Assembly (NCBI RefSeq): GCF_013410345.1
Contig: NZ_JACCFJ010000001.1
Coordinates: 124,001-188,000, forward strand
DNA length: 64,000 bases
Source: Saccharopolyspora hordei
GTDB taxonomy: Bacteria; Actinomycetota; Actinomycetes; Mycobacteriales; Pseudonocardiaceae
Reading direction: 5' to 3'
The translations under genes and the position numbers were made by a program. Below the pieces are notes generated by a model. It made no database searches. It had not been told where the DNA came from and worked only from the letters and a program-made list of their open reading frames with translations. Positions 25,164-31,708 of this stretch are shown one piece after another (positions within the stretch are counted from its first letter, which is position 1; each line of letters opens with the position of its first letter).

Positions 25164-25991
25164 ATGCCCGGTGCGATGGGTGCGAACAACGAGCTCGAGC
25201 TGCTGATCACCGTGGTCGTCGGGGCCGACGACGAGCGTTCGGCGCGCGCCGCGTGCCGGGAGCTGGTGCAGGCCGTGGGCGGCCGGATCGTCGCCTCGGG
25301 CGACTGCTCCGACGAGGAGCCGGGCTGCTTCTCGGTCACGATCAGCCGCGCGAGCGCGGAGACCGGCCAGCACGTGGCCGGGCTGTCCCGGGCGGTGCGG
25401 AACTTCCTCCGGGAGCTGGGCCCCGACTACGCCCGCCACCGGGTGGCGTGCGAGCCGCCGACCGCGTGGACCGTGGTGGACCACCCCGAGCTGGTGGGCG
25501 CGCTGGTCCGCGGCGGGGAGCGGATGCTGGTCGAGGCGTGGGCCGGCGGCACGCTCGTGTTCGGCCGCACCGAGCCCGTCGACCCCGACGAGCCGCCCGC
25601 GCCGCCCGCACCGGTGGTGGGCGAGCGGGACGAGCAGGGCCGCCCGCGCCCCCGGTTGGCGCTGGTGGTGGACGTGGTCACCGACCGCCGCGCGGGCGCG
25701 GAGTGGCAGGCGCGCGCCCTGGCCGGCCGGCTGTCGCGCACCACCGAGGTCGTCGGGTGCTCGGCGGAACCGCCGGTGGTGCGGGTCTCCCTGGACCTCG
25801 GCCCGGCGGTGGGCGAGCCGAAGGAGATCGTCCTCGGTGCCGTCGCCGTCCTCGGCGGCGGCGGGTGGTCCCGCGTCACCGACGACGGGGAGAGCGCGAG
25901 CGCGCGGTGGTCCGCCGCCCCGCTCCCGCCGTCCGGGATCGCGGCGATCGAGGTGACCGCGAGGTCCACAGTGGAGGTCGTCCGGAGCTGA
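25164..25991 (+). CDS. Conserved-looking protein of unknown function
   Basis: 275 aa, soluble, two apparent alpha/beta halves joined by a Pro-rich linker (EPPAPPAPVV, about residue 145-155). The first half begins ELELLITVVVGADDERSARAACRELV and the second LALVVDVVTDRRAGAEWQARALAGRL (both given in part), each a strand-helix pattern resembling ferredoxin-like folds. Several cysteines (CRELV, DCSDEEPGC) are present but no metal motif. I do not recognise the family. ATG 25164 or, equally likely, ATG 25176 is the start; neither has a good ribosome site. It precedes the FtsK-type locus by 218 bases. Confidence 0.55.
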   Translation: MPGAMGANNELELLITVVVGADDERSARAACRELVQAVGGRIVASGDCSDEEPGCFSVTISRASAETGQHVAGLSRAVRNFLRELGPDYARHRVACEPPTAWTVVDHPELVGALVRGGERMLVEAWAGGTLVFGRTEPVDPDEPPAPPAPVVGERDEQGRPRPRLALVVDVVTDRRAGAEWQARALAGRLSRTTEVVGCSAEPPVVRVSLDLGPAVGEPKEIVLGAVAVLGGGGWSRVTDDGESASARWSAAPLPPSGIAAIEVTARSTVEVVRS

Positions 25992-26209: not shown

Positions 26210-26470
26210 ATGGCAGGCGTGGAAGAAGTTCGCGCAGGCATCTCGCTGGCCAACCAGAAGATGCAGGAGGGCATCGCCGCCCTGCAACAGGCGAACCTCG
26301 TGCTCGAAGAGGCCCAATCCGCGCTCCTCTCCGCGACCCAGGGCAGCGCTCAGGAGGACATGCAGCACGCGCACGGCATGCTCGCCGAGGTGATGCAGGT
26401 GATCAACGGCGCGCAGGGCTCGATCCAGGCCACGATGTCCTCCGCCGAGGCCTACGCGGGACGGCTGTAG
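26210..26470 (+). CDS. Small helical-hairpin protein, WXG100-sized (FtsK-type locus)
   Basis: 86 aa, almost entirely predicted helix: helix 1 about residues 3-42 and helix 2 about 47-84, joined by TQGS. Heptad-like Ala/Leu/Gln spacing (ISLANQKMQEGIAALQQANL) suggests a coiled hairpin or dimer. Size and shape match WXG100 secretion substrates, but the turn has T-Q-G in place of W-x-G and there is no Y-x3-D/E tail. ATG 26210 has CGGAGGA eleven bases upstream. Four bases separate it from the next small gene. Function inferred only from linkage to the FtsK-type ATPase. Confidence 0.7.
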   Translation: MAGVEEVRAGISLANQKMQEGIAALQQANLVLEEAQSALLSATQGSAQEDMQHAHGMLAEVMQVINGAQGSIQATMSSAEAYAGRL

Positions 26471-26474
26471 CGCC

Positions 26475-26726
26475 GTGTCCGCCCTGGAGGAGCTCGCGCA
26501 GGTGCTGGGCGTCGTGGAACAGCACCTGCTCGACGCCGGCGCGCACCTGGGCACCACGCGGACGTCGTTGGACGAGGCCGAGAAGGCGCTGGTCACGCTC
26601 GACCCGGAGCACCCGGAGACGGTGGTGCCGCCGAGCCTGCACCGCGCCGACGACCAGGTGGAGCGCGCCCAGGACATGGTCGAGCAGGTGCTGGGCACGC
26701 TCCGCGACTTCGTCACCCGGCTGTAG
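26475..26726 (+). CDS. Second small helical protein (FtsK-type locus)
   Basis: 83 aa. Two amphipathic helices (about 1-40 and 54-83) joined by a Pro-rich turn (LDPEHPETVVPPS). GTG start four bases after the previous stop. Similar length and design to the 86-aa neighbour without obvious sequence identity, reminiscent of EsxA/EsxB-type heterodimers. No signal peptide, membrane segment or cysteine. Confidence 0.68.
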   Translation: MSALEELAQVLGVVEQHLLDAGAHLGTTRTSLDEAEKALVTLDPEHPETVVPPSLHRADDQVERAQDMVEQVLGTLRDFVTRL

Positions 26727-26850
26727 CGGCCCGGGCGGCGCTGCGCGGCACCGGCCGGGCAGCCACCCCGGGCCGGCGTCGGCGCAGGTCGGCACGCACC
26801 TGAACAGCGGACCCGGATCCGGCGCGGGATTGCGTCGTACGGGTCTGCCC

Positions 26851-26888
26851 GATCAACTGCCGAGTGGTACGTTGATCACTGTCAGTGA
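26851..26888 (+). promoter_or_regulatory. Operator-like palindromes before the FtsK-type ATPase gene
   Basis: GATCAAC (26851-26857) and GTTGATC (26871-26877) form a perfect inverted repeat with a 13-base spacer, overlapped by TCACTG-T-CAGTGA (26876-26888), a perfect palindrome. They end 21 bases before the GTG start. The GATCAACTGC half matches the motif at 26116. Confidence 0.5.
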
Positions 26889-26909
26889 CTTCGCTTCCCG
26901 AGGTGGGGT

Positions 26910-29717
26910 GTGGGTAAACGCAACGAGCGGCGGAGCCGCATCGAAGCAGCTTTCGAACGCCTGCGTTCCAGCATCGCCACCGCGCTCGGCGCCGCCGACA
27001 ACGAACGCGCCCGGGTCTTCGCCGAGTGCGCGCAGCAGGAGTTCGCGCTGCGCATCGCGCAGGCCGGCACCGCGGCCGCGGCGCGCGACCCGCAGGAGGT
27101 CGGCGACCCGGACGACCGCGCCTTCCAGGCCGCCCTGCAGGAGGCGCTCGCCGAGCGCGCCGAGGTCTACGCGGAGTGGACCGCCCGCGGGCCGCGGGAG
27201 CTGGAGCAGCTGGTGGCCGGGGTCGCGCCCGGGTCGGCTGGGCTGCCCTGGGCGGACTGGCTCGGCGAGGTCGGCACCCAGGAGCTGGCCGCGCGCCCGC
27301 CCGAGCTGTGGCGCCTCGGCACCGCGGTCGTGCCCGACTCACCGGACCCGCAGCCGTTCCCCGCCGCCGTGCCGCTGCTCGACGAGTCGCACCTGCGGAT
27401 CACCAGCGACGGCAACCCGGAAGCGGCCGAGGCCCTGGTGCAGAACCTGCTGCTGCGGCTGCTCAGCCACTTCCAGCCGGGTGCGGTGCGGCTGCACGTC
27501 TGGGACGTCTCCCAGCTCACCGGCACGCTGCCCGGCCTGTACCCGCTGACCCGCGCCGGGCTGCTCACCGCGCACGACCCCACCCGGCTCGACGAGATGC
27601 TGGAGGCGCTGTCCGACCACATCCGGCGGATCCACACCGGTGCGCTGCTCCGCGGCCACGCCTCGCTGCGAGCGCTGGCCGAGGAGACCGGGCACCGCAC
27701 CGAGCCGTGGCGCGTCGGGGTGCTGTTCGGCAACGGTGAGCCGCTGCGCGAGGAACAGCAGCAGCAGTTGCAGCGGATCGCCCGCAGCGGCCCGGCCTGC
27801 GGCATCCACCTCATCGTCGTGGACCTGTCGCTGACCGTGAACAGCGCGATCGAATCGGTGCGGCTCGTCGGCGACGACCGCGCGCGCTGCAGCACCACCG
27901 GCCCGGAAGCCGTGGTGCACCTGGACGAACCGCCCTCGCGCAACGAGGTCACCCAGGCCTGCACGGCGATCGCGGAAGCGTTCCTGGCCCGCCGCGCGCG
28001 GGTGCGCACCTTCGAGGACCTGGTGCCCGACCAGTACTGGCAGCACAGCTCCAAGTCGGGCCTGCAGGCGCCGGTCGGGTTCCACGAGGGCGAGCCGGTG
28101 TGGGTCACGCTCGGCGACAGCAGCCCGCACACCCTGATCGGCGGGCCGAGCGGCTCGGGCAAGACGAACTTCCTGTACGGCATGCTCGGCGCGCTGGCCG
28201 CCCGCTACTCGCCGGACGAGCTGGAGCTCTACCTGCTCGACTTCAAGGAGGGCGTGTCGTTCGCCCAGTTCACCCCCGGCAGGCGGGACCCGAGCTGGCT
28301 GCCGCACGCGCAGCTGGTCGGGGTCAACGTCAACACCGACCGGGAGTTCGGCCTGGCGCTGCTGCGGTTCCTGGCCCAGGAGATGCGGCGGCGCGCGGCG
28401 GCGGCGAAGGAGCACGAGGTCACCAAGCTCGAGGAGCTGCGCACCGAGGACCCGCAGGGCCGGTGGCCGCGGATCGTCGCGGTGATCGACGAGTTCCAGT
28501 ACCTGTTCGCCGAGCGCGACAGCGTCACCGCGCAGGCCACCGCGCTGCTGGAGGACGTGGCGCGGCGCGGCCGCTCGCAGGGCATCCACCTCGTGCTGGC
28601 CAGCCAGGACGTGTCGGGCATCGAGGCGTTCTGGGGCAAGCCCGCGATCTTCGAGCAGTTCATCCTGCGGATCGCGCTGCCCAAGGCCCGTCGCGTGCTG
28701 GCCGAGCAGAACCTGGCCGCGCTGGAGCTGCCCCGCTGGCACGCGGTGGTCAACCACGAGTCCGGCGTCAAGCACGGCAACGAGATCGCGCGCATCCCCG
28801 ACGCCACCGCGCGCGGCACCCTCGACGCGCTGCAGCGGGAGCTGTGGGAGCGGCGTGCTCCCTCCGCCGCGCCACCGCGCCTGTTCGACGGCTCGATCCT
28901 GCCCGCGCTGTCCACCCTGGACGACTACCGGGAGCTCTCCGCCCCGGTGTCCACGCCGAAGGCGCTGCTGGGGCAGATCATCGACGTGGACGGCACCGCC
29001 GCCGCGGTCCGGCTGAGCCGCTCGCCGGGGCGCAACATCGCGGTGATCGGCTCGGTCCGGGTGGACGCGGTCAGCGTGCTGGGGGCGGCGGCGCTCTCCC
29101 TCGCACGGCAGCACGTGCCCGGCGGCATCCGGTTCACCGTGGCGGCGCTGCTGGACGACGTCGAGGACGAGGCGCGGCACGTCGTGGACCAGCTGCGCGC
29201 CGGCGGGCACGACGCCGGCCTGGTGGGCCTGGACGACATCGAGGAGGCGGTGGCCTCCCTCGCCGACTCGATCGACGGCCGGTCCGGCGCGGACGTCCCG
29301 CACTGCCTGCTGCTCTACGCCGTCGACGCGGCGCAGACCACGCTGGAGCGCAAGGAGCCCGGTCGTCCCAGCGGCCTGGACCACCTGCGGAAGGTGCTCA
29401 AGCAGGGGCCGGAGTCGCGGGTGCACGTCATCGGCTGGTGGCGCAGCGTGCAGCGGGTGAAGAACACCCTCGGCATGGGCCCGGTGGACGACATCGGCGC
29501 GTGGGTGGCCTTCGACGTGCACGGCCAGGAGCTGTCCGCCTTCGCGGCGGGGCAGCCGGTCAGCTGGTCGCCGCGGGCCCGGCGCGGCCTCTTCTTCGAC
29601 CGGGCGGTGCACTCCCGCCCCGAAGTGCTGCTGCCGTTCGACCTCGCGGCGCCGGAGGTCCCGCAGGTGCCACGGCAGCGGGCGTCCGAGCAGGTCTGGG
29701 AGGAAGCCGGTGACTGA
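26910..29717 (+). CDS. Soluble FtsK/SpoIIIE-type ATPase with three ATPase-like domains
   Basis: 935 aa, no membrane segment. Residues 1-130 are basic then helical/coiled. Residues about 150-340 form a degenerate ATPase-like domain without a P-loop. Residues about 380-620 are the active FtsK domain: Walker A GPSGSGKT at 412-419, LLDFKEGVSF, Walker B IVAVIDEFQ with Asp527-Glu528, and LVLASQDVSG. Residues about 680-900 form a third domain whose P-loop position reads GSVRVDAV and lacks Lys/Thr. Three tandem ATPase modules recall EccC of type VII secretion, but there the first is the active one and a membrane anchor is present. GTG start preceded by GAGGTGGG. Could move DNA or small proteins; function not assigned. 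Confidence 0.85.
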   Translation: MGKRNERRSRIEAAFERLRSSIATALGAADNERARVFAECAQQEFALRIAQAGTAAAARDPQEVGDPDDRAFQAALQEALAERAEVYAEWTARGPRELEQLVAGVAPGSAGLPWADWLGEVGTQELAARPPELWRLGTAVVPDSPDPQPFPAAVPLLDESHLRITSDGNPEAAEALVQNLLLRLLSHFQPGAVRLHVWDVSQLTGTLPGLYPLTRAGLLTAHDPTRLDEMLEALSDHIRRIHTGALLRGHASLRALAEETGHRTEPWRVGVLFGNGEPLREEQQQQLQRIARSGPACGIHLIVVDLSLTVNSAIESVRLVGDDRARCSTTGPEAVVHLDEPPSRNEVTQACTAIAEAFLARRARVRTFEDLVPDQYWQHSSKSGLQAPVGFHEGEPVWVTLGDSSPHTLIGGPSGSGKTNFLYGMLGALAARYSPDELELYLLDFKEGVSFAQFTPGRRDPSWLPHAQLVGVNVNTDREFGLALLRFLAQEMRRRAAAAKEHEVTKLEELRTEDPQGRWPRIVAVIDEFQYLFAERDSVTAQATALLEDVARRGRSQGIHLVLASQDVSGIEAFWGKPAIFEQFILRIALPKARRVLAEQNLAALELPRWHAVVNHESGVKHGNEIARIPDATARGTLDALQRELWERRAPSAAPPRLFDGSILPALSTLDDYRELSAPVSTPKALLGQIIDVDGTAAAVRLSRSPGRNIAVIGSVRVDAVSVLGAAALSLARQHVPGGIRFTVAALLDDVEDEARHVVDQLRAGGHDAGLVGLDDIEEAVASLADSIDGRSGADVPHCLLLYAVDAAQTTLERKEPGRPSGLDHLRKVLKQGPESRVHVIGWWRSVQRVKNTLGMGPVDDIGAWVAFDVHGQELSAFAAGQPVSWSPRARRGLFFDRAVHSRPEVLLPFDLAAPEVPQVPRQRASEQVWEEAGD

Positions 29718-30102
29718 CCAGGGTCCGGCGTCGGCCCGGTACAAGGAGCTGACCGCGCTGGCGACCACCGCCGCGGAGCGGATGCGCAAGCACGAGCGGG
29801 CCCGCGCGGCCGAGCTGAGCGAGGTGGTCGCCGCGGGCCGGCAGCGCAAGGACGCGGCGGAGGAGCGGCGCCAGCAGGTCGTCGACGACGTGCGGGTCCG
29901 CTGGAACAACGCGATGGAAGCGCTGTGGGACGAGCGGTGGTTCCGGGTCAAGGGCCTGCCCGAACCCGACCGCTCGGCCCCGCCGATGACCCCGGAGGAG
30001 GCCCGGCGCCTGGTGCAGGACGCGTTCCTGGCGCTGCACGACGCCCTGGAGAAGCCCCGCTTCGGCTCCGGCATCCTCCCCCGCCGCAAGAGGGGCTCCT
30101 GA
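29710..30102 (+). CDS. Small coiled-coil protein (FtsK-type locus)
   Basis: 130 aa, highly charged. Residues 8-70 form a long helix rich in Arg/Glu/Ala (RMRKHERARAAELSEVV, RKDAAEERRQQVVDDV) consistent with a coiled coil; then a WNNAMEALWDERWFR segment with three tryptophans and a basic C-terminus (RRKRGS). It overlaps the ATPase gene by eight bases, so the two are coupled and likely partners. Not recognised as a known family. Its stop is one base from the rox stop on the other strand. Confidence 0.68.
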   Translation: MTDQGPASARYKELTALATTAAERMRKHERARAAELSEVVAAGRQRKDAAEERRQQVVDDVRVRWNNAMEALWDERWFRVKGLPEPDRSAPPMTPEEARRLVQDAFLALHDALEKPRFGSGILPRRKRGS

Positions 30103-30103
30103 C

Positions 30104-31708
<1,605 letters not shown>

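Follow-up and report, generated by a model that had tools for sequence, protein, structure and literature searches.

A 64-kb window of the 5.78-Mb single-contig genome of Saccharopolyspora hordei (the window being the whole stretch of 64,000 nucleotides analyzed here) contains a compact locus of four genes, which encode two small helical hairpin proteins, a soluble FtsK-type ATPase, and a coiled-coil-like protein. By comparison across related loci, the four genes form a conserved unit. Our favored reading, which we hold with slightly better than even confidence, is that the unit encodes a compact, type VII-like module in which a soluble motor would export or target proteins tagged with the hairpin. 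In related genomes, DNA-damaging toxins bear the hairpin at the place where one would look for a conventional export signal, and this suggests what the machine carries. The genes and the key motifs of the ATPase are as follows.

26210..26470, plus strand: 86-amino acid (aa) helical hairpin protein, P0001 family, probable remote WXG100 relative; C terminus Y-A-G-R-L-COOH
26475..26726, plus strand: 83-aa hairpin paralogue, P0002 family; GTG start; C terminus F-V-T-R-L-COOH
26910..29717, plus strand: 935-aa soluble ATPase with three predicted FtsK-like domains, Walker A and B in the middle domain only; GTG start
28143..28166, plus strand: Walker A motif GPSGSGKT, ATPase residues 412-419; invariant in alignment A4
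28488..28493, plus strand: Walker B Asp527-Glu528 of the ATPase; invariant in alignment A4
29710..30102, plus strand: 130-aa coiled-coil-like protein without a membrane segment; GTG start; in the position that is occupied by membrane-anchored proteins of distant relatives

The four-gene unit and its occurrence

A preliminary description of this stretch, made from its letters alone, had proposed the four open reading frames (ORFs), their sizes, a gap of 4 bases between the 86-aa and 83-aa genes, and an overlap of the 130-aa gene start with the ATPase stop, which measures 8 bases. All of this is borne out by the ORF positions, by start prediction, and by the ratio of nonsynonymous to synonymous substitution rates (dN/dS). 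Gene calling by codon usage, with the ATPase homologues from the named loci as the training set, chose the same four starts. The median dN/dS was 0.33 for each small gene (45 pairs each, with 1.89 for the highest P0001 pair), and thus both small genes look to be under purifying selection.

A search of one-per-species genomes yielded 63 loci from the Pseudonocardiales, and the closest named relatives that were fetched belong to Saccharopolyspora, with ATPase identities of up to 89%. An 86-aa homologue adjoins the ATPase gene in 62 of the 63 loci, the remaining locus (L053) being truncated by a contig end, and a 130-aa homologue is present in all 63. A distinct 83-aa gene was found in 55/62 loci, and no distinct second hairpin was found in seven loci of Pseudonocardia and Actinokineospora. 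Loci L048, L051, L056, L057, L058, L060, and L061 were excluded from the P0002 counts because their best match to the P0002 profile is the P0001 gene. Beyond the four genes, any one window gene has homologues at no more than 46 of the 63 loci, and the neighbors of the unit vary between loci.

Among 200 genomes of this actinobacterial family, the ATPase was detected in 161 (E ≤ 1e-60), as was the 86-aa family (E ≤ 0.001). Compared by eye, the two lists name the same genomes (161 with both and 39 with neither), and all but three of the 161 contain a single ATPase match. Constant linkage, which the preliminary description had proposed to look for, is found within this family. At the class level, 38 of 246 genomes have the ATPase (E ≤ 1e-40) and 25 have the hairpin (E ≤ 1e-4), all 25 lying within the 38. 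By eye, the two are on one contig in 21 of these 25 genomes, and the other four are assemblies of 560-1310 contigs. At the phylum level, 4 of 296 spread genomes match, the host genome among them.

The 130-aa partner raises the question of how the unit relates to the membrane. Hydropathy analysis found a membrane segment in the 130-aa proteins of none of the 63 family loci. Among 20 distant loci, 17 have an ATPase gene followed by one whose product has one to four hydropathy-predicted membrane segments, and in an eighteenth (L114) such a gene follows a split ATPase. As for the last two, L110 has no called gene of that kind and L121 has a 338-aa gene without a membrane segment. The suggestion that the system is free of membrane components thus stands for this family and fails for the distant relatives, in which 18 of 20 loci have a coiled-coil gene with membrane segments. 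Homology of the 130-aa protein to the distant membrane-anchored proteins was considered and is unsupported (HHalign 3.3 and 4.1%). Any loss of the anchor in this family would therefore be read from gene position.

Hairpin-bearing toxins in related genomes

Genomes of the family that contain two or more hairpins, 63 in all, gave 123 secondary hairpin matches, and 32 stretches around these, plus one in the host genome, were read. Two proteins of 276 aa and 240 aa begin with the hairpin and continue into a DddA-like deaminase domain (PF14428, E 1.9e-33 and 1.2e-31), and each of the two genes is followed by an Imm1 gene. Altogether, 44 of these 123 are at most 1 kb from one of 150 listed PF14428 matches (29 at most 300 bases away), with a rough chance of 0.0006 per match. 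The PF14428 domain itself occurs in 98 of the 200 family genomes, both ATPase-positive and ATPase-negative.

The starts of these toxins were compared between genomes with and without the ATPase. The ATPase-positive set consisted of the 30 best-matching PF14428 loci, from 30 genomes. The ATPase-negative set consisted of 10 loci from four genomes (G275, G311, G377, and G393) of two genera; these are all the listed ATPase-negative places except one at a contig end in G273, and they exclude places in G285 and G319 and a fourth in G393, which were not among the matches listed. A hairpin was detected in or beside the toxin gene at 27 of the 30 ATPase-positive loci (23 in the same ORF) versus 0/10 ATPase-negative loci at E ≤ 0.01; at E ≤ 0.001, the ATPase-positive count was 23/30. 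The reverse held for a hydrophobic, Sec-like stretch preceding the toxin domain, which was seen at 0/30 ATPase-positive versus 9/10 ATPase-negative loci. Fisher tests gave 3.4e-7 for the hairpin and 3.7e-8 for the Sec-like stretch, values that are not corrected for ancestry.

As a guard against selection bias, a second set of 20 lower-ranked loci from 18 ATPase-positive genomes was analyzed. Here, the hairpin was found at 12/20 loci at E ≤ 0.01 (within the toxin ORF at 4 and in another ORF of the locus at 8) and a Sec-like stretch at 0/20. Four loci of this set have at most 50 in-frame upstream residues and so could hardly show either a hairpin or a Sec-like start. In the pooled sets, the hairpin is in or beside the toxin gene at 39 of 50 ATPase-positive loci, none of which has a Sec-like start. 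The 28 genomes tested for canonical EccC, 20 without and 8 with the ATPase, all have it. The mere presence of ESX, therefore, does not explain the hairpin-headed toxins. A scan of 10 toxin proteins returned one LXG match, which was weak (E 0.0058).

Other arrangements of the hairpin were also seen. At position 5,509,178 of the host genome (L196, 5807-6442), a further hairpin ends a 211-aa ORF in the vicinity of a protein that resembles FtsK (E 3.2e-5, slightly short of the Pfam cut-off). At this locus and at L200, L251, L253-L257, L261, and L262, several of which look mobile, the hairpin forms the C-terminal end of a longer ORF. Most of these have an in-frame Met or Val just ahead of the hairpin, so both free and fused forms may be made. 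The proteins at L249, L250, L263, L267, and L266 are hairpin-headed with C-terminal domains that have no Pfam match above cut-off, and they are candidates for further toxin types.

The ATPase and the small proteins

The Pfam domain FtsK_SpoIIIE matches ATPase residues 375-569 (E 6.6e-27). The Walker A motif at 412-419 and Asp527-Glu528 of Walker B, both noted in the preliminary description, are identical throughout the 23 homologues of alignment A4. With 37 ATPases aligned, HHalign gave 95.2% for domains D1 versus D2, 92.0% for D1 versus D3, and 57.9% for D3 versus D2, and a reversed D2 control gave 0.1% against D1 and 0.1% against D3. The smaller alignment of 23 sequences gave 89.8% for D1 versus D2 and just 0.6% for D3 versus D2. 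This profile comparison supports an ATPase with three FtsK-like domains, of which only the middle one has Walker A and B, in line with the earlier view of two degenerate domains flanking an active-type middle domain.

The affinity of the ATPase was judged from scores and a domain tree. In a ranking of solved structures by the ATPase profile, EccC (4nh0) scored 103 bits, YukB 65, EccC5 63, and FtsK 35. With the NCBIfam equivalog models, the window ATPase scored 96.8 bits for EccCa against a cut-off of 509.15 and 57.1 bits for EccCb against 346.55; EccC fragments of the host itself reach EccCa scores of 982, 964, and 577. The FtsK equivalog gave 14 bits against a cut-off of 1566, and no FtsK gamma domain was found in the Pfam output for the window ATPase. 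In a tree of 37 domains, in which FtsK is a long branch and no root is placed, the six EccC domains of the host group together on one side (branch support 99/92). By these measures, the ATPase is nearer to EccC than to FtsK, yet outside the EccC clade. EccC as the direct parent of the ATPase was considered and is without tree support. Hydropathy gave no peak above threshold in 36 of the 63 family ATPases, and in the 12 listed of the remaining 27 the peaks fall at about residues 295 and 710, with none N-terminal; N-terminal membrane anchor segments of the EccC type were thus not found in the family ATPases by hydropathy in this listing.

Two unusual ATPases were encountered. L103 and L105 encode paralogues from one genus in which the Walker A lysine is replaced, and an adjoining hairpin gene was not detected at either. 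Near 2.117 Mb of the host genome (L271, 771-4946), a 1391-aa protein combines an EACC1-associated-caspase-like region (91.9 bits, below the cut-off of 140) with EccC-type ATPase domains.

The 86-aa protein is modeled as two helices, residues 2-45 and 48-85, joined by a turn at 46-47 (mean predicted local distance difference test score, pLDDT, 91.2), and the 83-aa family aligns with the 86-aa family over its full length (HHalign 96.6%). The proposal of two helical hairpin proteins is consequently upheld for the first by a predicted structure and for the second through profile alignment to the 86-aa family only. A wide hairpin alignment that reaches four further families (A5) has almost no gaps over its 85-87 aa; its only two invariant residues are Met1 and Leu86, and Gly45 is conserved in at least 90% of the sequences. 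Compared with 28 WXG100 proteins, A5 gave an HHalign value of 79.2% (E 1.6e-5), with Gly45 opposite the Gly of W-x-G. In the controls, the highest value among 60 column shuffles was 2.4%, and two reversals gave 6.9 and 5.7%. The small proteins are probably remote homologues of WXG100.

No Trp occurs at the hairpin turn among the 30 aligned 86-aa homologues, which agrees with the earlier observation that the small proteins lack W-x-G, and the 86-aa gene is not among the nine PF06013 matches in the host genome. Searches of Pfam, NCBIfam, and PADLOC with the single small proteins gave nothing firm. A weak match to DUF6244 recurs in 4 of 30 members (best E 0.0092), a term for which our search of the open-access literature found no paper. 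A sequence search of the PDB with the hairpin profile was set aside, since all its matches were helical and of the level expected by chance (best E 0.067).

The C-terminal tail of the hairpins follows a fixed pattern. The last residue is Leu in 62/62 P0001 and 55/55 P0002 homologues (117/117), and the position five from the end is aromatic or aliphatic in all 117. Among 20 free or C-terminal hairpins from other loci, scored by eye, the last residue is Leu in 16, Ile in 3, and Phe in 1, and the residue five from the end is Tyr in 19 and Trp in 1. L104 and L121 are exceptions to this pattern. L121 (3381-8130), a locus from the same order with a distant ATPase, also encodes an 88-aa protein with a Trp near its middle (QWND), which is possibly a bridge to WXG100.

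Readings of the locus and its known relatives

A mechanism can be proposed for the export or targeting module that we favor. The free hairpins would form a four-helix bundle with the hairpin carried by a client protein, as in Esx pairs. WXG100 heterodimers are encoded in bicistronic operons, and such pairs probably derive from a homodimer, according to an excerpt of PMC3935865. The fixed tail (an aromatic or aliphatic residue, three residues, and Leu-COOH) would dock on a degenerate domain of the ATPase; this step is modeled on EsxB, whose C-terminal peptide binds ATPase3 of EccC through an LxxxMxF signal, as an excerpt of PMC6954902 states. The ATPase would drive the client protein by ATP-powered transport, and the coiled-coil protein may anchor this motor at the membrane, by itself in distant lineages and via another membrane partner here. 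A bolder form, which is possible and in our opinion rather doubtful, is that the locus represents a third, minimal branch of type VII systems that exports hairpin-tagged proteins, DNA-deaminase toxins included, without an EccB/D/E complex. In such a branch, and just as tentatively, the hairpin might replace the Sec signal on these toxins throughout an actinobacterial family and the coiled-coil protein might be an adaptor, elsewhere membrane-anchored. If the favored reading is right, a function would be assigned to a gene set that most genomes of a large actinomycete family have (161 of 200), type VII motor capability would be seen without the ESX membrane complex, and the leader of many actinobacterial DNA-deaminase toxins would be accounted for, with the hairpin predicting more clients.

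Several observations weigh against the favored reading. The link to WXG100 is remote; it falls to 11.0% in HHalign with the narrower alignment A1 and so depends on the wider family, and P0001 by itself matches nothing in Pfam. Hydropathy and neighbor comparison revealed no membrane component at the family locus. At the class level, 13 of the 38 ATPase-positive genomes have no hairpin detectable by A5, and L119 and L120 have other helical-looking genes at its place. The remaining 79 of the 123 secondary hairpins are more than 1 kb from any listed PF14428 match; by eye, 11 of these are the second gene of the main locus itself, and the others examined are on mobile-looking loci or on proteins without an assigned domain. 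Likewise, no hairpin was detected at E ≤ 0.01 at 11 of the 50 ATPase-positive toxin loci, four of these 11 having at most 50 in-frame upstream residues. The ATPase-negative toxins represent just four genomes of two genera, so that the contrast could be due in part to common descent, and "Sec-like" was called from hydropathy rather than with a signal-peptide predictor. Lastly, the host genome has no PF14428 match and no toxin client was recognized in it, so the core role of the locus cannot depend on DddA-like toxins.

Two other explanations are both aided by the absence of a linked membrane gene in this family. The unit could be a cytosolic feeder of canonical ESX, with the soluble ATPase and the hairpins handing clients to the EccB/C/D/E complex. 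The host encodes three EccC-type ATPases, and EccC accompanies the ATPase in all eight ATPase-positive genomes tested. Nevertheless, the 20 ATPase-negative genomes tested have EccC as well, yet the hairpin occurs in 0/39 ATPase-negative genomes. In addition, distant relatives have their own membrane partner beside the ATPase, and plasmid-borne relatives are found in a betaproteobacterium, a Helicobacter, and a Deinococcus. We consider this explanation unlikely. Alternatively, the four genes could encode an intracellular signaling or housekeeping complex with the hairpins as structural subunits, from which toxins and mobile elements borrowed the hairpin for docking. This would suit an ATPase that is present in 161 family genomes when PF14428 is present in only 98, as well as hairpins that end ORFs on elements with FtsK-like proteins. 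It fits poorly with toxins that, in ATPase-positive genomes, are without the Sec-like start seen in their ATPase-negative counterparts, and a toxin accompanied by an immunity gene would be expected to exit the cell. We regard a housekeeping complex as quite unlikely.

The preliminary description had left open whether the locus is a relative of the type VII secretion system (T7SS) or a DNA-translocation or defense system. Kinship with type VII has gained from the remote WXG100 homology, from EccC and YukB as the nearest solved structures, and from the hairpin on toxins in relatives. An FtsK-like DNA translocase or a system against phages or plasmids is, by comparison, very improbable. It could call on the FtsK_SpoIIIE domain and on PADLOC matches to SspH (1.1e-19) and mad8 (1.9e-19); however, these PADLOC matches are limited to the ATPase core, EccC and YukB rank above FtsK, no defense genes are among the scanned neighbors, and the hairpin partners and toxin fusions indicate protein traffic. 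A defense island was rejected for similar reasons, the unit being widespread in the family rather than patchy, with changing neighbors. The locus shares a P-loop motor domain with FtsK DNA translocases and differs from them in its low scores, its lack of a gamma domain in the Pfam output, and its other partners; it differs from the PADLOC systems mad8, SspH, and HerA in having no match beyond the ATPase core.

With ESX (T7SSa), the locus has in common an EccC-related ATPase, tandem hairpin genes, and a conserved C-terminal tail. It differs in that EccC cut-offs are not reached, the ATPase has no membrane anchor, and the active-type domain is the middle one and lies outside the EccC clade. EccB, EccD, EccE, and mycosin were absent among the scanned neighboring genes of the window. 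Since several defining features of ESX were looked for and are lacking, W-x-G and linked ESX genes among them, the locus is not an ESX member, as had been suspected. The small partners of LXG toxins in type VIIb systems (T7SSb) are helical. In LXG toxins, as in the toxins described above, a helical N-terminal domain heads polymorphic toxins; unlike LXG systems as they appear in excerpts of PMC9600955, those described here have an 86-aa hairpin, DddA-like toxins with Imm1, and actinobacterial hosts.

The nearest precedent, and the sole existing description of this kind found in the open-access literature with the terms searched, is in Zhang et al. (2012; PMC3482391). Table footnote 6 of that paper describes a solo WXG protein with a YueA-like ATPase of three HerA/FtsK domains, the middle one alone active, in non-actinobacterial lineages, and terms such systems apparently mobile versions of T7SS. 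Because the footnote describes the kind in other phyla, the locus is a variant of it and not wholly new. Both have an ATPase of three FtsK domains, of which the middle one alone is intact, and a small partner, which at the present locus is probably a remote WXG100 relative. Unlike the systems as footnoted, the present locus has a hairpin without Trp, usually two hairpins, and a coiled-coil-like gene after the ATPase, and unlike the mobile ones, it occurs in most genomes of an actinobacterial family. It looks like an actinobacterial, Trp-less branch of the Zhang kind that most genomes of the family carry.

Plasmid relatives from Caballeronia, Helicobacter, and Deinococcus pair an FtsK gene with a small gene, which is annotated as WXG100 in Caballeronia and has a Trp at the turn in the other two; in these respects they agree with the footnoted kind. 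The Caballeronia relative (L275, 2066-13140) lies beside WXG100, VWA, CARF, PP2C, and kinase genes. On a Rhodococcus plasmid, an 86-aa gene matches A5 at 1.7e-14 and the coiled-coil-like gene has a membrane segment; this module (L274, 2466-9336) is downstream of Hsp70, tetratricopeptide repeat (TPR), and GrpE genes.

Two other genes of the window lie near the unit. Directly downstream, on the minus strand (30104-31513), is a rifampin monooxygenase-type gene (838.6 bits against an NCBIfam cut-off of 800), which has a homologue in just 3 of the 63 loci and is thus not part of the unit. Upstream, on the plus strand (25176-25991), is a gene without a Pfam or NCBIfam match that has a homologue in 46 of the 63 loci.

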